From Gemmatimonadota bacterium (lineage in GTDB: Bacteria; Gemmatimonadota; Gemmatimonadetes; Palauibacterales; Palauibacteraceae), in contig JAJDUL010000053.1 in NCBI GenBank assembly GCA_022826685.1, positions 62,001-126,000 on the forward strand: DNA of 64,000 nucleotides, given 5' to 3'. The notes below the pieces were generated by a model that ran no database searches, was not told the origin of the DNA, and saw only the letters and a program-made list of their open reading frames with translations. This document shows, in pieces, positions 1,246 through 8,679 of this stretch. The translations under genes were made by a program, and so were the position numbers. Each line of letters begins with the position of its first letter. The first letter of the stretch is position 1.

Positions 1246-2400
1246 TCAGTCGGCCAGTACTTCCGTCAGCGTCTCGGCCACCTCGTCGATCTGCGCTTCG
1301 GTGATCACAAGCGGTGGCAGCAGCCGGATGACCGTGGTGCCGGCCGGGAGGGCGAGGACGCCGCGCTCCGCGAGGGCTTCGAGGTAGGGGCGGCAGCGCT
1401 CCCGGAGTTCGACGCCGATCATGAGGCCCACTTGCCGCACGGCGCGCACGCGAGCCGACCGGCGTCGGGCGAAACGCTCGCTGAAGCGAGAGCCCAGCGC
1501 CTCCGCCCGCTCGTCGAGCCGTTCGTCCCGCATGAAGCGGATCGCGGCCAGGGCGGCGGCGCAGGCGAGCGGGTTGCCGCCGAAGGTCGTGCCGTGCCGC
1601 CCGGGCGGCGGCTGCAGCCGTTCATGCGCCAGGACCGCTCCCAGCGGCACGCCGCCCGCGATCGCCTTCGCGAGGCAGAGAACGTCCGGCGCGACGCCGT
1701 AGCGATCGCAGGCGAACATGCGGCCGGTGCGGCAGAAGCCCGTCTGGATCTCGTCGAACACGAGGACCGCACCGGCCTCGTCGCAGATGCGGCGCGCCGC
1801 CGACAGATAGTCCTGACTGGCCGGCCGCACCCCCCCCTCTCCCTGCACCGGTTCGATGATGACCGCCGCCGTGTCCTCGCCCACGGCCGCGCGCAGCTTC
1901 TCGACGTGGTTGAAAGGTACGAACGAGAACCCCGGCACGAGGGGCTCGAACGGCTCCCGGTACTGCCTTTTATGCGTCGCGCTCAACGCACCCAGCGTTC
2001 GCCCGTGGAAGCCGCGCATCGCGGACACGACCCCCACCCGTCCGGTCGCAAACCGCGCGAACTTGATCGCCGCCTCCACCGCCTCCGCCCCCGAATTGCA
2101 GAGGAAGGCGCGCGTGAGCCCCGCCGGCGCGATCGAGACGAGTTCGGCCAGCAACCGCGCCCGGACATCGTTGTAGAAGATCCCGGGACAGGACACGAGC
2201 ACTCGAGCCTGTTCCGCCAACGCCTCGGCGACGGCCGGGTTGGCGTGGCCGATGCTCGCCACGCCGATGCCGCCCACGCAATCGATGTAGCGGCGACCCT
2301 CGTCGTCCCACACGCACGCGCCCTCGCCCCGCACGACCGCGATGTCGCGCTTCGGGAACACCTCGAGCGCGTACTCCCGCTCGGTCTCGCGCACGTTCAT
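1246..2400 (-). CDS. lysJ: [LysW]-lysine/ornithine aminotransferase (class III, PLP)
   Basis: This 384-residue protein is a class III PLP aminotransferase of the ArgD/LysJ group. The PLP-binding Asp is at about 216 (FDEIQTG) and the Schiff-base Lys at about 245 (LAKAIAGG). It would transfer an amino group, usually from glutamate, to the semialdehyde held on LysW, giving LysW-bound lysine or ornithine. It is the last gene of the operon, and its ATG overlaps the lysZ stop (ATGA), implying coupled translation. By sequence alone it could be plain ArgD; the LysW operon context decides the name. Cytoplasmic. Confidence 0.85.
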   Translation of the reverse strand: MNVRETEREYALEVFPKRDIAVVRGEGACVWDDEGRRYIDCVGGIGVASIGHANPAVAEALAEQARVLVSCPGIFYNDVRARLLAELVSIAPAGLTRAFLCNSGAEAVEAAIKFARFATGRVGVVSAMRGFHGRTLGALSATHKRQYREPFEPLVPGFSFVPFNHVEKLRAAVGEDTAAVIIEPVQGEGGVRPASQDYLSAARRICDEAGAVLVFDEIQTGFCRTGRMFACDRYGVAPDVLCLAKAIAGGVPLGAVLAHERLQPPPGRHGTTFGGNPLACAAALAAIRFMRDERLDERAEALGSRFSERFARRRSARVRAVRQVGLMIGVELRERCRPYLEALAERGVLALPAGTTVIRLLPPLVITEAQIDEVAETLTEVLAD

Positions 2401-3209
2401 CCGATGACCGTGCCCCGTCCGGCCAGCGCCTCCGAGATCGGATGTTCGACGCGCCCGTCCGCGATCACCACGCGCGTCGTGCCGGACTCCACGAGTCGCC
2501 TCAGGGCGAGCAGCTTCCGCTTCATGCGCCCGGTGACCTCGCCCTCCCGACGCGCAAGCTCCGCGAGCCCGAGCCGCGCGACGACCGACGCCGGATCGTC
2601 AGGGTCCTCGAGGAAACCGGGCGCCTCGATCAACTGGATCACGCAGTCTGCTCGCAGTTGGTTGCCCAGCAGGGTCACGACGTCATCGTTCTCCGAGTTG
2701 ATCGCCACGTTGTGCTCGTCGATCAGGGGCACGGTCAGCACCGGCGTGAACCCGCCGTCGAGGAGCAACGCCAACAGCTTGCGGTTCACCTCTACCGGTT
2801 TCCCGGACAGGTCCCGCTTGATCAGCGTCTTGCCGCCCTCTCTCACCCGGATTCCCCGGTTGCGGCGGCCGCGCACGAGCGCGCCGTCGAGCCCGGTGAG
2901 TCCGACCGCATTCACGCCCTGACCCTGCAGCAGTTCCACGATGCGCTTGTTTCGCAGGCCCGCGTAGGCCATGAGCATCACGTCGATCAGGTCACGGTCG
3001 GAACGTACGCTCTCGTGTCCGGACACGGACGTGAGGATGCGCTTCTCGACCCCGAGCCTCCGGGCCAGGGAATCGCGCAGCGCGTTCGCGCCGTGCACGA
3101 TGACGAGCGGACCGGACAGGTCCGCCAGGTCGCGAGCGATCCCGTCCAGATTGATGGATGCTCCACCGCCGATCTTGACGAGAAGCAGCCCGTCGGGTTC
3201 GCGTCGCAT
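2397..3209 (-). CDS. lysZ: [LysW]-aminoadipate/glutamate kinase
   Basis: This is a 270-residue amino-acid kinase of the ArgB/LysZ type. It starts with the glycine-rich phosphate loop LLVKIGGGAS and has the VIVHGAN segment. Near the C-terminus is GRMKRKLLA, where ArgB/LysZ enzymes have the conserved G-x-M-x-x-K motif that binds ATP phosphates. It phosphorylates the side-chain carboxylate of the substrate on LysW. The start lies 3 bp after the amidotransferase stop and the end overlaps lysJ by 4 bp. The N-terminus lacks the extension of arginine-inhibited ArgB enzymes. Whether the substrate is aminoadipate or glutamate cannot be told. Confidence 0.87.
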   Translation of the reverse strand: MRREPDGLLLVKIGGGASINLDGIARDLADLSGPLVIVHGANALRDSLARRLGVEKRILTSVSGHESVRSDRDLIDVMLMAYAGLRNKRIVELLQGQGVNAVGLTGLDGALVRGRRNRGIRVREGGKTLIKRDLSGKPVEVNRKLLALLLDGGFTPVLTVPLIDEHNVAINSENDDVVTLLGNQLRADCVIQLIEAPGFLEDPDDPASVVARLGLAELARREGEVTGRMKRKLLALRRLVESGTTRVVIADGRVEHPISEALAGRGTVIG

Positions 3210-3212
3210 CGG

Positions 3213-3860
3213 TCAGAACGTCCCTACGGCGCCGTTGGCCACCGGCGTCCACGCCCCCCGCCCGTCGGAAGCCGGATAGGGCGCCGAGCACAGGATCCGC
3301 ACGCCGTCCCGCCGGGCGGCATGCATCCGGAAGTAGTCCGGGTCCTCGCTGAATCGGGTCGCGAAGTGGACCCGCCGCGACGCGTCGGCGACGATCAGAT
3401 TCATCGCCCGCACGTAACGGGTACGCTTTTCGATCGCATCGAGTCCCCGCTCCAGCGCACGACCCATGTCTCCGTCATCGAAGCGCTTGACGAAGTTGAA
3501 CACCTTCTCCGCGCCGATCCGCCCCCGTTCCTTGATCCGCACTCCGTGCAGCTCTCCGTTGAAGATGAACGCGCGCTCCCCGTCGAAGAACGGCATGTTG
3601 TTCTCGACCCGTATCCCTTCGCCGCGATACGCGCTCCTCGCATGGGCGAGCAAGAGCGTCGTGCGTCCGGCCAGCGCCGCGGTGTCCTCCCACACCGGCG
3701 AGATGTTGCGGTAGACGCGCCACCCGTCGGCATCGATCCAGGCGCACCCCCACCCGTCGCCCTGATACTCGGGACTCTCTCGGGCGAGTTGCGCGAAGGC
3801 GGCGAGGTGCAGCTCCATGTCGAAGGGCTCGTCGCTCCGGACGCAGAGGATGCGGCACAC
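3213..3860 (-). CDS. Class II glutamine amidotransferase-fold (EgtC/YafJ-like) Ntn hydrolase in the LysW operon
   Basis: This 215-residue protein starts with GTG and has Cys as residue 2, the catalytic nucleophile of class II amidotransferases once Met is removed. Further family positions are DGWG (35-38), HAR (73-75) and NGEL (101-104, the oxyanion-hole Asn-Gly). The usual N-x-H-P-F is NNMPF here, and the His before NG is Phe. There is no fused synthase domain, so it is a stand-alone amidase or hydrolase like YafJ or EgtC. It lies 26 bp after lysY and 3 bp before lysZ, inside the operon. EgtC cleaves a gamma-glutamyl amide; a similar bond joins LysW to its cargo, so product release from LysW is a possible role (inference). 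Ammonia supply or glutamine degradation are alternatives. Confidence 0.75.
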   Translation of the reverse strand: MCRILCVRSDEPFDMELHLAAFAQLARESPEYQGDGWGCAWIDADGWRVYRNISPVWEDTAALAGRTTLLLAHARSAYRGEGIRVENNMPFFDGERAFIFNGELHGVRIKERGRIGAEKVFNFVKRFDDGDMGRALERGLDAIEKRTRYVRAMNLIVADASRRVHFATRFSEDPDYFRMHAARRDGVRILCSAPYPASDGRGAWTPVANGAVGTF

Positions 3861-3886
3861 GATGGATTCAGCTCCGCGTGTCGCGG

Positions 3887-4909
3887 TCAGGCCGGATGCA
3901 GCCCGGGGAACTCGAGCCCCCGCGACTCCGGCAACCCGTGCATCACGTTGAACGCCTGCACCGCCTGTCCCGCCGCTCCCTTCATGAGATTGTCGATCGC
4001 GCTCAGAACGACGACCCGGTTCGAGAGCGGATCGCGCTCGAACCCCACGTCACAGTAGTTCGCGCCCGCCAGGAGGTTGGGGTCGGGATAGCGGTGGATG
4101 CCGCTCCGCTCCTTGACGATGCGTACGAACGGTTCGTCGGCGTACGCGCTCCGATAGATCTTCCACAGCGCCTTCTCATCCAGCTCCCGGTTCAGGAACA
4201 CGTGACAGGTGGCGAGGACGCCGCGCACCATCTCGACCGCCGTCGCGGAGAAATGCACATCGCCGCCCAGCACCGCCGCGATCTCGGCCGCGTGGCGGTG
4301 ACCCGTGGGCCGATACGATCGCATGGCGCCGCTGCGCTCCGGATGGTGGCTGCCCTCGCTGGCGCGGTTCCCGGCCTCGCTCGATCCCACCTTCACCTCG
4401 ATCACGACCGAGTCCGCGACCTCCTCGCGGTACAGCGGGAGGAGCCCGAGGATGGAGGCCGTCGCGTTGCAACCCGCGCACGCGACGAGCTCCGCCTCCG
4501 CCAGCGCCTCGCGGTTCACCTCCGCGATCCCGTACACGAACGATCCCAGGAGCTCCGGCCGAGGGTGCGGCCGGCCGTAGAAGCGCTCATAGTCGGCGCC
4601 GTCCTCGAGCCGGAAGTCCGCGCCCAGGTCGACGATCCGCCCCGCCAGGGACCGGAACTCGCCGATGCGGCGGGACGATTCCCCGTGCGGGAGGCAGAGA
4701 AAGAGCACGTCGCACTCCGACAGCTCTTCGAGCGCGCTGAAGCGCAGTCGCGTGACGCCGCGCAGGTTGGGATGGACCCGGCGCGCGAACCGCCCGGCGA
4801 AGCGCTCCGATGTGATCTGCCGCACCTCGACGTCGGGATGACCGAGGAGGAGCCTCAACAGTTCCCCACCGGCGTAGCCCGAGCCGCCCGCGATCGACGC
4901 GCGGATCAT
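3887..4909 (-). CDS. lysY: [LysW]-aminoadipyl/glutamyl phosphate reductase
   Basis: This 340-residue protein is homologous to ArgC. The N-terminal Rossmann motif is [14 protein letters not shown], and the active-site Cys is about residue 147 in CAGCNAT. The HHPERSGAM and GHRHAAEI segments are the family's substrate-side histidines. It reduces the acyl phosphate on LysW to the semialdehyde with NADPH. Its ATG overlaps the lysX stop (ATGA). It differs from ordinary ArgC mainly by its operon partners, and the LysY assignment rests on lysW, lysX and lysZ next to it. Confidence 0.87.
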
Positions 4910-5754
4910 CGGTCCGCCGCCCGGTCCGGCGAGAGCACGTAGGACACGATCCTCTCCGGAATGTTCACGCCCGTCGCCTCGATGCTGTTCCGGAACTCCA
5001 TCGTGTAGTTCACCTCGTTGACCAGCAGCTCGCCGCCGCTCTCGAGCAGGTCCACCGCGACCACGCCCCCGCCCATGGCGGCCGCCGCGCGCAGCGACAG
5101 CTCTCCAATCTCGCTCGTCACCGGACAGTTCGAGGCCGTTCCGCCGCGTGCCGTATTCGTGATCCAGTGCTCGGACGACCGGTAGATGGCGGCCACGCAG
5201 TCGTCGCCGACGACGAACGCGCGGATGTCGCGCCCGCGCTTCTCGACATACTTCTGCACGAAGAAGATCGAGTGATGATAGCTGCCCAGGATCGCCTTGT
5301 GTTCGAGGACCGTCTCCGCCGCGTGCCGGTCGTTGATCCTCGACAGAAGGCGGCCCCAGGAGCCGACCGCGGGCTTGAGGACCACGGGATAGCCGAGTTC
5401 CTCGATGGCCTTGAGCGCGGACTCCTCGGTGAACGCGACCCTGACCTCAGGCTGCGGCACACCGCATTCCTGGAGCGATGCCGCGGTGAGGATCTTGTCC
5501 CCGCAGCGGCGCGACACCTCGTAGCGGTTCACGCAATCGAGACCGGCCCCCTCGAACAGTCGCAAGGCGTGCATGGCCCGCGAGTGGTTGATGCAGCGCT
5601 CGAGAACGACGTCGACGTCGGGGACGTTCCGGAAGTCGAACGCGAGCCTGCGGTCGTCCAGAAACACCAGTTCCACGTCGCTGCGCCCGCGCAACTCCGC
5701 GATCAGCAGCTTCTCGTCCTTGCGGATGAGCGAATGAAGAAAGCCGACTCTCAT
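4906..5754 (-). CDS. lysX: LysW-amino acid ligase (LysX/ArgX, ATP-grasp)
   Basis: This 282-residue RimK-type ATP-grasp ligase joins the amino group of alpha-aminoadipate (or glutamate) to the gamma-carboxyl of the C-terminal Glu of LysW. The [14 protein letters not shown] block at about 199-213 and [14 protein letters not shown] at 244-257 are very like the Thermus LysX pattern as I recall it. The second block carries the Glu/Asn metal ligands of ATP-grasp enzymes. The start overlaps the lysW stop (ATGA), so carrier and ligase are translated together. ArgX and LysX are close relatives, and the cargo here may be aminoadipate, glutamate or both. Confidence 0.9.
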
Positions 5755-5915
5755 TCGCCCCAGTCCTCCTCCGCGTCCGGCGCCTCTCCAAGGGTGATGG
5801 GGTCGAGTGCGAGGATCTCGAGTTCGACGCCGCAGTCCTCACATTCGAGCAACTCACCCTCGACGGGGTCGTCGGAAATCGTCGGTTCCGCGCCGCATAC
5901 AGGACATTCCGGCAT
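5751..5915 (-). CDS. lysW: Amino-group carrier protein LysW
   Basis: This is a 54-residue acidic protein too short for most gene callers. Two Cys pairs, CPVC and CEDC, form the expected zinc site. The C-terminus ends in EEDWGE, the conserved LysW tail whose last Glu carries the growing amino acid through a gamma-carboxyl amide. The start MPECP is chosen because GGAGG lies 9 bases upstream; another ATG three codons earlier abuts that GGAGG and is less likely. The stop overlaps the lysX start. As first gene of the operon it is probably preceded by the promoter in the 65-bp gap upstream. Confidence 0.93.
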
Positions 5916-5980: not shown

Positions 5981-6685
5981 TCAGTCTGGCGCCGGGTTCC
6001 GGAAAGGAAGCCGCAGCGCCAGAAAGAGCCCGATGGCCACGGGTTCGAGGAGCAGAATGTACCACGGCCAGCCCGGGAAGACGTCCAGTATCGATGTCGT
6101 CGGCGGCTTGTCGATGAGATACAGGTAGTTGGACCCGAGTACGCGGTTGATGGGATACACCGCGACGGCGTACACGTTCAGCAGGCCGAACGCCAGCCAG
6201 GGATCGCGCGCCTTCGGCCGGTAGTCCTCCACCGTCACCGCCCACAAGCCCGCGATGACGGCGATTCCGTGCGAGGCCATCGTCTCGTAGAAGGCGAAGT
6301 GGAGAACGCCGTGGGACGCATCGGGCGTCAGCACGGCCTGAACGGCCCCCGCGACGCCGAAGAAGTACATGAGCCGAAGGGTCCAGAGGTGCCGCGTCCA
6401 CAGCCCGTACACCGTCAACCAGGCCATCGCCGCGCACAGGTGCAGCGGGAGGTCGTTCTGCAGGGTCCACAGCCCCACCGACGCTTTCCACGTGTGCCTG
6501 AGGCCGAGGAGGAGGAGGATCGCCGCGCCCATGGCGAAGCGGAGGCGGCGGCGCCGATCCTCGTCGCCAGCCATGCCTGCCCGGATCAGACAGACTCCGA
6601 TCGCGACCAGGACCCCCATCGTCGCGAGATGGACCGGACCGAAGAGATCCAGCGGCACCGACTCCGTCCCGAAGAACCCGCCCAT
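5981..6685 (-). CDS. TIGR02206/YwaF-type integral membrane protein
   Basis: This 234-residue protein has six to seven predicted membrane helices. The start 'GPVHLATMG', the segment NDLPLHLCAA and the YPINRVLGSNYLYL region match the TIGR02206 family, which includes Bacillus YwaF. The biochemical function of that family is not known. It lies 44 bp after the NagB/PIG-L gene and 65 bp before lysW on the same strand. It may share a transcript with either, but nothing ties it to the amino-acid pathway. Confidence 0.7.
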   Translation of the reverse strand: MGGFFGTESVPLDLFGPVHLATMGVLVAIGVCLIRAGMAGDEDRRRRLRFAMGAAILLLLGLRHTWKASVGLWTLQNDLPLHLCAAMAWLTVYGLWTRHLWTLRLMYFFGVAGAVQAVLTPDASHGVLHFAFYETMASHGIAVIAGLWAVTVEDYRPKARDPWLAFGLLNVYAVAVYPINRVLGSNYLYLIDKPPTTSILDVFPGWPWYILLLEPVAIGLFLALRLPFRNPAPD

Positions 6686-6729: not shown

Positions 6730-8643
6730 TCACGCGTCCGCGTCCGCGAGGGAGGAGGTGGGGATCTCCGGACCCTCCACCCGCCGTCCATCCCGCAGCG
6801 TCACGTACGCCTCCATGGCGTAGTAGGCCGGCAGGCCCAGGGCGGCGAGCCGGTTCGCGGTATCCCGGTTTCGTTCGACGACGCGCTGCCAGAATTCCCG
6901 CGGATCCGGACCGGGGAAGGGAGCCAGATCCTTCTGTGTTTCGTGTCGGAAGATCGCCTGGACCTTGCCGCGCAGTTCGCCTTCGGAGAGCGGCACGAGG
7001 ACGGTCGCTTCGTCGAGGCTCCACTCCTGCCACGCGCCGCGGTAGAGCCAGAGCCACGGCGGGTCGCCGCGGTAACCGGCGAGCGCCGCATCCACCGTCT
7101 CGAGGCACATGCGGTGCGTGCCGTGCGGATCGGACAGGTCTCCGGCGGCGAACACGATCGTCGGCCGCACCTGCTCCAGCAGCTGCGCGACGATCTCCAC
7201 GTCCTCCGATGTGATCGGGTTCTTCTTCACCGCTCCCGTCTGATAGAACGGCTGGTTCAGAAAGCGGGCGCGGTCGGCGGAGAGCCCCAGCGATTCGATC
7301 GCGGCCGTGGCCTCCGTCTCGCGGATGATCCGCTTGAGTTGTTGAACCACGCCGGGATCGATGTCCCCCGGCTCCTTGCGGGCGAGCCGGTCTTCGAGAG
7401 ACCGCAGCACCCCCTCGAGGCTCGCGGCGTCGCCAAGGTCGATGACGCCGGCCGCGCGCCGCAGGAAGTCCAGGTACCGGCGCACCTCGTGGTCGAAGAC
7501 GGCGATGTTCCCGGACGTCTGATACGCCACGGTGACGTGGTTGCCGTTCTCGACGAGCTTGCGCAGCAGTCCGCCCATCGAGATCACATCGTCGTCCGGG
7601 TGAGGCGAGAAGACGACGATGTTCTGGCCGCGCGGCAGCCGGCTCTTCCCCCGGATCTTGGAGATGAGCGCGTTGAAGACCTGTCCGTTGAGCGGCTCGG
7701 CCGAACCGTGCCGGGACGTGAGCGGCGCGAGGTGGTTCGCGCGATAGTCGTCGGTCGCGAGGTGCAGGATCGACTTGTCGATGCGTTCGCTCAGCCAGAT
7801 GACGGCCGCGGTCTCGCGCTCCGCCGTCCACTCCACATCGCCCACGAGCCACGGCGTGCGAACGCGCGTGAGGTCGGAAGCGGCGGCCGGATCGAGATAG
7901 ACCGTCGCGGCGGCGTGTTGCTGAAGAAAGGTCGCGGCGACGTCCGCGTGGACCTCCCCCTCGACGGCTCGACGCACGATCCCCGCCTTGTGTTCGCCGG
8001 TCGCGAGCAGGACGACTTCCCGCGCTTCGAGGATCGTCGCCACGCCCATCGTGATCGCCTGCGGCGGCACGTTCTCCTCGCCGAAGAAATCGGACGCCGC
8101 ATCGCTCCGGGTGACGGTGTCCAGGTAGAGCCGCCGGGTGCGCGAGTCGCGCTCGGACCCCGGCTCGTTGAAGCCGATGTGACCGCTGCGCCCGATTCCG
8201 AGAATCTGGAAGTCGATCCCGCCGGCCCGCCGGATTCGGCGCTCGTACTCGACGCAGTGCGCCTCGACCTCCGCTTCCGGCACATCGCCGCGAGGGATGT
8301 GGCATTGCTCCGGAGCGATGTTCACATGGTCGAACAGGTGCTCCCGCATGTAGCGGTGATAGCTGTGCAGGCTGCCGGGCCGCATCGGGAAGTACTCATC
8401 GAGGTTGAAGGCGATCGCGTTTGAGAAGTCGAGTCCTTCGTCCCGATGCAGGCGGATGAGTTCCCGATAGACGCCGACGGGCGTGGCGCCGGTTGCGAGG
8501 CCGAGAACGGCGGCGCGCCCGTTCTTCGCCCTCTCCCGCAGGAGCGCCGCGATCCGGCCCGCGACTTCGGCGGCGATGCTGTCGTGGTCCGGCATGACCC
8601 GGACCGGCACACGTTCCCTCCGCGCGTGTGCGGCGACGCTCAT
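6730..8643 (-). CDS. NagB-like glucosamine-6-phosphate deaminase fused to PIG-L/LmbE deacetylase domain
   Basis: This protein has 637 residues. Residues 15-270 are a NagB-type isomerase domain: FNLDEY (Asp82) and GHIGFNEPGS (His155, Glu160) match catalytic positions of NagB. The Asp normally two before the His is Ser153. Residues 340-600 are a PIG-L/LmbE zinc deacetylase with HPDDD at 348-352 and DPHGTH downstream. Similar two-domain proteins are known in Bacteroidetes. Together the domains could deacetylate an N-acetyl-amino-sugar derivative and then deaminate or isomerise it; this is inference. The start has GGAGG five bases upstream, preferred over an ATG ten codons earlier. It follows the M16 gene by 36 bp. 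Confidence 0.82.
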   Translation of the reverse strand: MSVAAHARRERVPVRVMPDHDSIAAEVAGRIAALLRERAKNGRAAVLGLATGATPVGVYRELIRLHRDEGLDFSNAIAFNLDEYFPMRPGSLHSYHRYMREHLFDHVNIAPEQCHIPRGDVPEAEVEAHCVEYERRIRRAGGIDFQILGIGRSGHIGFNEPGSERDSRTRRLYLDTVTRSDAASDFFGEENVPPQAITMGVATILEAREVVLLATGEHKAGIVRRAVEGEVHADVAATFLQQHAAATVYLDPAAASDLTRVRTPWLVGDVEWTAERETAAVIWLSERIDKSILHLATDDYRANHLAPLTSRHGSAEPLNGQVFNALISKIRGKSRLPRGQNIVVFSPHPDDDVISMGGLLRKLVENGNHVTVAYQTSGNIAVFDHEVRRYLDFLRRAAGVIDLGDAASLEGVLRSLEDRLARKEPGDIDPGVVQQLKRIIRETEATAAIESLGLSADRARFLNQPFYQTGAVKKNPITSEDVEIVAQLLEQVRPTIVFAAGDLSDPHGTHRMCLETVDAALAGYRGDPPWLWLYRGAWQEWSLDEATVLVPLSEGELRGKVQAIFRHETQKDLAPFPGPDPREFWQRVVERNRDTANRLAALGLPAYYAMEAYVTLRDGRRVEGPEIPTSSLADADA

Positions 8644-8679
8644 CCGATCCTCCGCTGGCCGTGGCGCCCCCACGCGATG

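Follow-up and report, generated by a model that had tools for sequence, protein, structure and literature searches.

The window that we analysed is a stretch of 64,000 nucleotides from a Gemmatimonadota bacterium. Its minus strand encodes, at positions 1246-5915, an operon with the order lysW-lysX-lysY-GATase-lysZ-lysJ. LysW (5751-5915) is a carrier protein of 54 amino acids that ends in EEDWGE, with the codon for the terminal glutamate (GAA) at 5754-5756, and scores 58.4 bits against TIGR01206 (cut-off 53.2). LysX (4906-5754) is the ATP-grasp ligase that loads an amino acid on LysW (330.4 bits against TIGR02144, cut-off 275.6); it contains the LysX-type stretch WITNTARGG as well as GSWGR, so that both hallmarks of a LysW carrier system, the LysW tail and GSWGR, are present. 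LysY (3887-4909) is an argC-like LysW-aminoacyl-phosphate reductase (378.2 bits against the argC model TIGR01850, cut-off 233.6), and LysZ (2397-3209) is a LysW-aminoacyl kinase (241.1 bits against NF010659, cut-off 223). LysJ (1246-2400) is an argD/lysJ-type aminotransferase that is above the cut-off for argD (TIGR00707; 440 bits, cut-off 410.05) and under that of the LysJ equivalog model (NF042418; 481.1 bits, cut-off 700). The lysW/lysX, lysX/lysY, and lysZ/lysJ pairs overlap by 4 bp each, while gaps of 26 bp and 3 bp separate the GATase gene from lysY and lysZ, respectively. These coordinates and the family scans bear out the gene order and tight spacing that had been described in a sequence-only reading of this DNA.

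The remaining gene of the operon (3213-3860) encodes a stand-alone protein of 215 amino acids with a class II (Ntn) amidotransferase fold, which we propose is a LysW C-terminal gamma-amidase. Translation begins at a GTG codon and the next codon (3855-3857) encodes cysteine. As the sequence-only reading had stated, the protein contains Cys2, NGEL, DGWG, and NNMPF, and we found no synthase domain in it. It matches the Pfam family GATase_4 (30.1 bits, cut-off 23), but neither Pfam nor NCBIfam has a curated name for its family. The model for EgtC (TIGR03442), the gamma-glutamyl amidohydrolase of ergothioneine synthesis, gives 45.2 bits, far under its cut-off of 218.65; of 47 members of the GATase subfamily, 46 match this model at E <= 0.001. 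A structure model that begins at Cys2 (214 amino acids, with the start residue left out) has a pLDDT of 91.6, and its 13 best matches in the PDB are all EgtC chains. The TM-scores by query to EgtC (4zfj, 4zfk, and 4zfl) are 0.73-0.78, at 20-22% identity, and the best E values are 2.8e-13 for EgtC, 5.5e-9 for GlmS, and 1.5e-8 for a PurF-type enzyme. The predicted structure is thus that of a class II (Ntn) amidotransferase, with EgtC as the nearest structure. EgtC uses its N-terminal cysteine to hydrolyse a gamma-glutamyl amide, and its substrate is a small molecule that bears a free alpha-amino group.

We compared the key residues across 84 GATases. (One more, from genome G211, consists of two matches that flank unknown bases; we counted it as GATase-positive but left it out of the residue count.) Cys2 is present in all 84, as are Arg75 (codon 3636-3638), which we take to bind the alpha-carboxylate, and Asn101 (3558-3560) and Gly102, which presumably form the oxyanion hole. 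In GlmS, the free alpha-amino group of glutamine is bound by Asp123. This canonical aspartate is present in all 8 EgtC-like rows and the one GlmS row of our alignment, but it is replaced by glycine (Gly116 in the window, codon 3513-3515) in 84 of 84 GATases. Also unlike EgtC, 83 of the 84 have methionine instead of the histidine of NxHPF. The seed peptides of our scan of 77 loci (FIFNGELH and GRIGAEKV) favour glycine at the aspartate position; glycine is also found there in 14 relatives from a protein search and at 6 further loci from a profile search. The change from aspartate to glycine suits a substrate that is the C-terminal glutamate of LysW: we propose that the aspartate was lost because the alpha-nitrogen of the last residue of LysW sits in a peptide bond. 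Given this change, the GATase need not be an amidotransferase that acts on free glutamine, despite its fold.

The GATase is linked to LysW genes far beyond the genus of the window. When we checked how often it lies between lysY and lysZ, we found this arrangement in 73 of 85 loci, so the linkage is conserved. The remaining 12 comprise partial operons, loci at a contig edge, and different gene orders. At two loci (L156 and L114), the GATase gene follows lysJ. The neighbours of the GATase are genes of the LysW pathway. The loci come from lineages with roughly twelve different labels at the level of phylum or class, archaea among them, and all 14 strong GATase homologues among the first 60 relatives sit between lysY and lysZ. 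The linkage exceeds chance. A search for the GATase on plasmids gave no match.

The known enzyme for the last step of this pathway is LysK ([LysW]-lysine/ornithine hydrolase, TIGR01902), an M20 metallopeptidase that detaches lysine or ornithine from LysW, where the amino acid is bound to the gamma-carboxyl of the last residue. LysK thus shares its reaction and its position in the pathway with what we propose for the GATase, but the folds and chemistries are unrelated: the GATase, a putative Ntn cysteine amidase, is not a homologue of the M20 metallopeptidases. The sequence-only reading had noted that no lysK-type enzyme lies in the window, and this extends to the whole genome, where no protein is above the curated cut-off for LysK (best 64.7 bits, cut-off 163.1). 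The genome has 13 M20-family matches; we considered 8 of these as candidates for LysK and rejected them, as they lie below any LysK cut-off (the best has 74.1 bits for TIGR01902, with only the matched stretches scored). Similarly, none of 48 genomes with the GATase (48 of the 77 loci; 10 of them chromosome-level records by title) has LysK above the family cut-off. We sorted 48 LysX-positive genomes, drawn from two phyla, by which of the two enzymes they encode: the GATase occurs alone in 30 and LysK alone in 16, 2 genomes lack both, and none combines them. In no genome that we searched for both enzymes did the two co-occur. This exclusivity corresponds to one switch on a tree of LysX and LysY (with low branch support, 24) and does not amount to many independent events. 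There is also a swap within a class: the operon at locus L151 has the order W-X-Y-Z-J-K and lacks the GATase.

The C-terminus of LysW itself differs between the two groups. Of the 74 GATase-linked loci with a readable LysW end (11 of the 85 have none), 22 encode a terminal glutamine and 52, including that of the window, encode a terminal glutamate with the GATase gene still in place. The glutamine form is found, for example, in Sulfidibacter corallicola (L102) and Acanthopleuribacter pedis (L098), both of which are named organisms whose records are not MAGs. In contrast, none of 18 LysK-linked LysW proteins ends in glutamine (Fisher p 0.005; p 0.01 to 0.03 from a branch-length estimate). By parsimony, the end of GATase-linked LysW changed between glutamine and glutamate at least 15 times. 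The LysK side comprised 21 loci, of which three Streptomyces plasmid loci (L183, L184, and L186) were left out, their "lysW" being a neighbouring hypothetical protein. Separately, five loci (L152, L153, and L178-L180) were left out as duplicates or pieces of genomes that were already counted. We consider the glutamine tails to be moderate evidence for the role of the GATase.

The GATase is probably an Ntn amidohydrolase that hydrolyses the C-terminal gamma-amide of LysW and takes the place of LysK. That it might be a non-homologous replacement for LysK had been suggested before, and the absence of LysK, the conserved linkage, the swap at L151, the aspartate-to-glycine change, and the glutamine or glutamate at the end of LysW all support this. 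We infer its catalysis, substrate, binding mode, dual use, and products as follows. LysX, LysZ, LysY, and LysJ would attach glutamate or alpha-aminoadipate to LysW, via the gamma-carboxyl of its last glutamate, and convert this cargo to ornithine or lysine. Removal of the initiator methionine would expose the N-terminal cysteine of the GATase, which would attack the gamma-amide; the free amino acid would depart, and water would then free LysW-Glu for the next round. The pocket would have kept the arginine for the free C-terminal carboxylate and lost the aspartate for a free alpha-amino group. Where LysW is encoded with a C-terminal glutamine, the same reaction, with ammonia as the leaving group, would yield the glutamate form that LysX needs. 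The LysW of the window ends in glutamate and so needs no deamidation. If the GATase deamidates LysW-Gln, then the last codon of LysW would, in this clade, be free to encode either residue.

Alternatively, the GATase might only mature the carrier by deamidating LysW-Gln to LysW-Glu, with an unrecognised peptidase, such as an ArgE/DapE-family deacylase, freeing the product. The glutamine tails are found on the GATase side alone, the fold is that of glutaminases, and the genome of the window does encode M20 deacylases: L031 and L035 are above the cut-off for the ArgE/DapE family, and a deacylase of this type could release the cargo of LysW. However, maturation would not explain why the gene is kept where LysW already ends in glutamate (52 of 74), and LysK is missing from all 48 GATase genomes examined. 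Furthermore, in a genome from the Woesearchaeota (G126), the GATase belongs to a LysW operon that includes aminoadipate-type genes, and the LysK model has no match in this genome at E <= 0.001 (the completeness of this genome is not given). We consider a maturation-only role unlikely.

We give slightly less credence still to a proofreading role, in which the GATase would take off amino acids that were loaded on LysW in error while another M20 peptidase releases the product. The chemistry would be identical, and the 13 M20-family matches offer candidates, but the GATase replaces LysK across genomes rather than accompanying it, three LysK sequences used as tblastn queries brought up nothing resembling lysK in the stretches examined around the GATase, and the release step would be left without a recognised enzyme. 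It is very improbable that the GATase is an ordinary glutaminase that feeds ammonia to a partner or an EgtC-type enzyme that acts on free gamma-glutamyl compounds. The class II fold and the weak likeness to EgtC would fit, but the protein has no synthase domain, is far under the EgtC cut-off, has glycine in place of the aspartate for a free alpha-amino group in all 84 members compared, and is strongly linked to LysW genes; also, we know of no ammonia-using step in the LysW pathway.

The cargo seems to differ among lineages, so the common substrate would be the tail of LysW. In the genus of the window, we found no ArgB above the cut-off, and lysA and argF are present; the product there is most likely ornithine for arginine synthesis. 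We consider lysine the likeliest product in several other lineages. A lysA gene above the cut-off is missing in 8 GATase genomes, and 18 of the 85 loci contain a homocitrate-synthase-like gene. (For L092, L094, and L114, this label rests on operon context because their scores, 354.8, 342, and 224.5 bits, are below the cut-off of 413.55; the homoisocitrate-dehydrogenase-like gene of L092, at 401.1 bits, is just below the subfamily cut-off of 409.8.) Many GATase genomes contain both ArgB and LysA, including two Binatia and several Gammaproteobacteria, and the LysW module of these lineages may make a third product. The WITNTARGG of the window's LysX is common to the chains from T. thermophilus and T. 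kodakarensis, while StArgX differs. This stretch, which probably holds the 5-residue signature of LysX (PMC10433800), is that of aminoadipate-type and bifunctional LysX and does not point to glutamate as the cargo in the window.

We compared the GATase with two further enzymes. Dug3 of yeast glutathione breakdown is reported to be a class II glutamine amidotransferase tied to gamma-glutamyl cleavage. The partner of Dug3 is the M20-type Dug2, and its substrate is glutathione. Pup is linked via the gamma-carboxyl of its C-terminal glutamate and is encoded with glutamine in some species, and a single enzyme, Dop, is both deamidase and depupylase (PMC8599861). As described there, Dop is built on a glutamine-synthetase-like fold, and its catalytic phosphate is derived from ATP. 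Its likeness to the proposed role of the GATase, with deamidation of a carrier and release by one enzyme, is functional only, as the GATase has the Ntn amidotransferase fold; and Pup tags proteins, whereas LysW carries metabolites.

Among the papers listed in our literature searches, none reported a GATase-type LysW amidase. Some bacteria and archaea seem to use the GATase instead of LysK to release the product from LysW, and this enzyme may have a second task in preparing the carrier. With somewhat less confidence than for release itself, we favour the broader view that this is a second, non-homologous class of LysW release enzyme, in which one Ntn amidase primes LysW-Gln and frees the product, whichever the cargo, in many bacteria and in Woese- and Nanoarchaeota. 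If so, LysW-dependent synthesis of lysine and arginine would gain an enzyme for its missing final step in many lineages, and a subfamily that is labelled, at best, as glutamine amidotransferase would have a role. A cysteine Ntn amidase would also have taken over from a metallopeptidase, a clear case of replacement by an enzyme that is no homologue of the first, and the encoded glutamine/glutamate switch on a carrier protein would repeat the logic of Pup and Dop in primary metabolism. Finally, where auxotrophy is predicted from the presence or absence of LysK or ArgE in a genome, organisms with the GATase could be judged unable to complete the pathway.

We propose that a stand-alone class II (Ntn) amidotransferase-fold protein, hereafter the GATase, may replace LysK, the known M20 metallopeptidase that releases lysine or ornithine from the carrier protein LysW. 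As the sequence-only reading had described, the LysW operon of the window (1246-5915, minus strand) has the order lysW-lysX-lysY-GATase-lysZ-lysJ, and family models upheld the identities of LysW, LysX, LysY (argC), LysZ, and the argD-type aminotransferase. The fourth gene (3213-3860, minus strand) encodes a 215-amino-acid protein that begins with M-C-R. It matches Pfam's GATase_4 at 30.1 bits and the EgtC model at 45.2 bits, far under the latter's cut-off of 218.65. Among 47 diverse members of the family, 30 matched GATase_4, 16 matched GATase_6, and 46 matched the EgtC model at E ≤ 0.001; no closer family was found in Pfam and NCBIfam, whose curated models leave this subfamily unnamed. In PDB, a profile of the family matched four distinct sequences, of which three are EgtC and one (3mdn) is a class II domain protein. 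An AlphaFold2 model of the GATase (pLDDT 91.6, pTM 0.90; the input was 47 sequences from the window and the other loci) had EgtC chains as its best 13 structural matches, followed by 1te5 (a predicted glutamine amidotransferase), GlmS, and PurF-type enzymes. On the same strand, 65 bp upstream of lysW, lies a gene for a TMEM164-related (TP0381) membrane protein (5981-6685), and 6730-8673 encodes a glucosamine-6-phosphate deaminase-like domain fused to a PIG-L deacetylase domain (PRK02122 family).

A strong homologue of the GATase was found in 14 of the first 60 related genomes, and in all 14 it lies between lysY and lysZ. These are 13 members of the genus (including the window's genome, G000) and one genome from another family of the class, and they are exactly those of the 60 with LysX over the cut-off. 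Scanning the genome_contigs collection with two family peptides as seeds (FIFNGELH and GRIGAEKV) yielded 77 GATase loci. Their record titles, which we take as given, name Gemmatimonadota, Acidobacteriota, Gammaproteobacteria, Calditrichota, KSB1, Binatia, Deltaproteobacteria, Phycisphaerae, Ignavibacteriaceae/Melioribacteraceae, Caldisericaceae, Woesearchaeota, Nanoarchaeota, and Aminicenantes. Adding the window and seven loci from Acidobacteriota brought the total to 85, and the placement noticed in the window, lysY-GATase-lysZ, recurs in 73 of them. The other 12 have lysY-GATase without a lysZ match (6 loci), GATase-lysZ without a lysY match (3), or a different arrangement (3). None of the 85 loci contains both the GATase and LysK. 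Three gammaproteobacterial loci have no lysZ or lysJ match after the GATase in the sequence covered (10 kb for L073 and L074, about 2.4 kb for L072). A locus labeled Nanoarchaeota (L108, 451-12638) has an operon with three copies of LysX, two LysW (both ending in Gln), and aminoadipate-type genes, and it has a weak match to "mobile mystery protein B", under the cut-off, between lysY and the GATase.

The window lacks lysK, and a genome-wide search with the LysK model (TIGR01902, cut-off 163.1) extends this to all of G000, where the best score was 64.7 bits. LysK was also not found over the cut-off in any of 48 GATase genomes that were searched genome-wide (best score 111.1 bits); these were drawn from the 77 loci, and 10 are chromosome-level records by title, the completeness of the others not being stated. 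LysX was over its cut-off in 23 of 100 relatives; in the phylum of Sulfidibacter, 25 of 199 genomes had it. Among these 48 LysX-positive genomes, 30 have the GATase without LysK, 16 have LysK without the GATase, 2 have neither, and none has both (P = 7e-11, Fisher exact test, with relatedness ignored). As for the two genomes with neither, the contig of L155 ends just past a lysY-lysZ junction that has no GATase, and on the contig of L154, which is 5.35 kb long, we found neither gene in the roughly 1.7 kb that follow lysY. The only one of the 100 relatives with LysK over the cut-off, G060, belongs to the window's own class; its operon is lysW-X-Y-Z-J-K, with 13 bp between lysY and lysZ and no GATase. 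On a tree of LysX and LysY from 99 loci, the GATase/LysK label changes just once, on a branch with low support (24), so there was probably a single old swap that has been kept since, rather than many independent events. The arrangement already known is seen on a plasmid of Deinococcus sp. NW-56, where a [LysW]-lysine hydrolase is annotated. Streptomyces plasmid clusters (L183, L184, and L186) encode a LysX homologue, an M20 hydrolase, transketolase halves, and a small neighboring protein that is unlike LysW.

The main loophole is that another peptidase could in principle release the cargo in G000. This genome has 13 M20-family matches, and two of them (L031 and L035) are above the cut-off for ArgE/DapE-family deacylases; none of the eight that we read, these two among them, reached a LysK cut-off.

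The active site of the GATase hints at its substrate. We aligned the GATase by profile to eight EgtC-like proteins from related genomes, with probabilities of 99.4 to 99.7, and by MAFFT to the same eight and one GlmS. These alignments pair G-R-I-G-A-E of the GATase with G-S-T-D-S-E, and the Asp is present in all eight EgtC-like proteins and in GlmS. Cys2, Arg75, Asn101, and Gly102 are each conserved in all 84 GATase sequences, and the His of the NxHPF motif is Met in 83 of 84. Gly also replaces Asp (Gly116 in the window) in 84 of 84; the seeded scan was biased toward Gly at this place, and the relatives from the protein search and six loci from the profile search agree. In GlmS, the Asp binds the α-amino group of glutamine and the Arg binds its α-carboxylate. 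The kept Arg and lost Asp thus predict, from sequence, a ligand with a free carboxylate and without a free α-amino group, and the terminal Glu of LysW would fit. According to one report (PMC10433800), LysX attaches aminoadipate through its amino group to the γ-carboxyl of LysW's C-terminal Glu54, and a GSWGR motif in LysX/ArgX recognizes the EDWGE tail.

The last residue of LysW also differs between the two types of operon. Among 74 readable GATase-linked loci, LysW ends in Glu in 52 and in Gln (EDWGQ, with a CAG or CAA codon) in 22 (L072, L073, L076-L080, L088, L089, L091, L093, L098, L099, L102, L106, L108, L110, L111, L157, L165, L166, and L168). LysW ends in Glu in all 18 LysK-linked loci that have a genuine LysW, in both loci with neither protein, and in the three LysW sequences in PDB, so that among the loci read, the Gln ending is confined to GATase-type operons (plain Fisher test, P = 0.005). 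Close relatives can differ (L093 has Gln and L103 has Glu), and well-supported mixed groups include L085/L091, L093/L103, L094/L110, L092/L108, L075+L081/L077+L078, and L106+L088/L095. On the tree, there are at least 15 Gln/Glu changes among the GATase rows and none among the LysK rows; if changes fall by branch length, the probability that all 15 would be on the GATase side is 0.01 (0.03 without long rows). We consider these statistics to be supportive, not decisive. Because LysX requires a carboxylate, some enzyme in the GATase clade must deamidate LysW-Gln, and the GATase, as the operon's one glutaminase-fold gene, is the candidate.

Which amino acid is made appears to vary. Our searches for ArgB, lysA, and argF covered 56 genomes. 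The set includes G000 and 11 other members of its genus that have the GATase. In these 12, ArgB over the cut-off is absent (the single match in each is lysZ, with 119.7 of 151.3 bits in G000), yet lysA and argF are present (354.9 and 380.5 bits in G000), so ornithine is most likely the product in this genus. Counting against this, the window's LysX has a WITNTARGG stretch as in LysX from T. thermophilus and T. kodakarensis, not the StArgX form; the T. kodakarensis LysX is described as bifunctional in the same report (PMC10433800). Four members of the genus (G004, G006, G012, and G013) lack the GATase, LysX over the cut-off, and any ArgB-family match at E ≤ 1e-15, but they kept argF; they could be arginine auxotrophs, use another route, or have incomplete genomes. 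Elsewhere, 18 of the 85 GATase loci have a homocitrate-synthase-like gene within the operon, and two loci, L092 (Woesearchaeota) and L166, also encode proteins like homoaconitase and homoisocitrate dehydrogenase. The name "homocitrate synthase" rests on context because these genes score under the curated cut-off; the query also retrieves the annotated lysS region of Deinococcus. Eight GATase genomes have no lysA over the cut-off (G126, G127, G132, G133, G136, G142, G143, and G147), which points to lysine as their product, with the caveat that these genomes may be incomplete. Many other GATase genomes have both ArgB and LysA. Four loci labeled Binatia or Deltaproteobacteria (L084, L090, L097, and L100) have an additional lysJ-like gene upstream of lysW, and their LysW pathway may make something other than arginine or ordinary lysine because the two tested genomes behind them (G124 and G134) also have ArgB and LysA. 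Given these varied cargo genes, the GATase seems to go with LysW rather than with any single cargo.

In the mechanism that we infer, Cys2 would attack the γ-amide of the last residue of LysW, the leaving amine would be ammonia, ornithine, or lysine, and water would then liberate LysW-Glu. What we observed are the genes, how they are distributed, the mutual exclusion with LysK, the conserved residues, and the pattern of LysW tails; the activity, the binding mode, the pairing of deamidation with release, and the products are inferred from these. We found no account of such a LysW-linked enzyme or of a Gln-ending LysW among the titles and abstract openings that we covered in the open-access literature, where subscription journals are mostly missing; a rumen review (PMC6167468) contains both the words "LysW" and "amidotransferase". 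Pup and Dop follow this logic: where Pup is encoded with Gln at its C terminus, Dop deamidates it, and Dop also strips Pup from conjugates (PMC8599861); by analogy, one enzyme could serve for both carrier deamidation and release. The GATase fold and the LysW pathway are each known, but their combination and the Gln/Glu switch of the carrier appear to be new.
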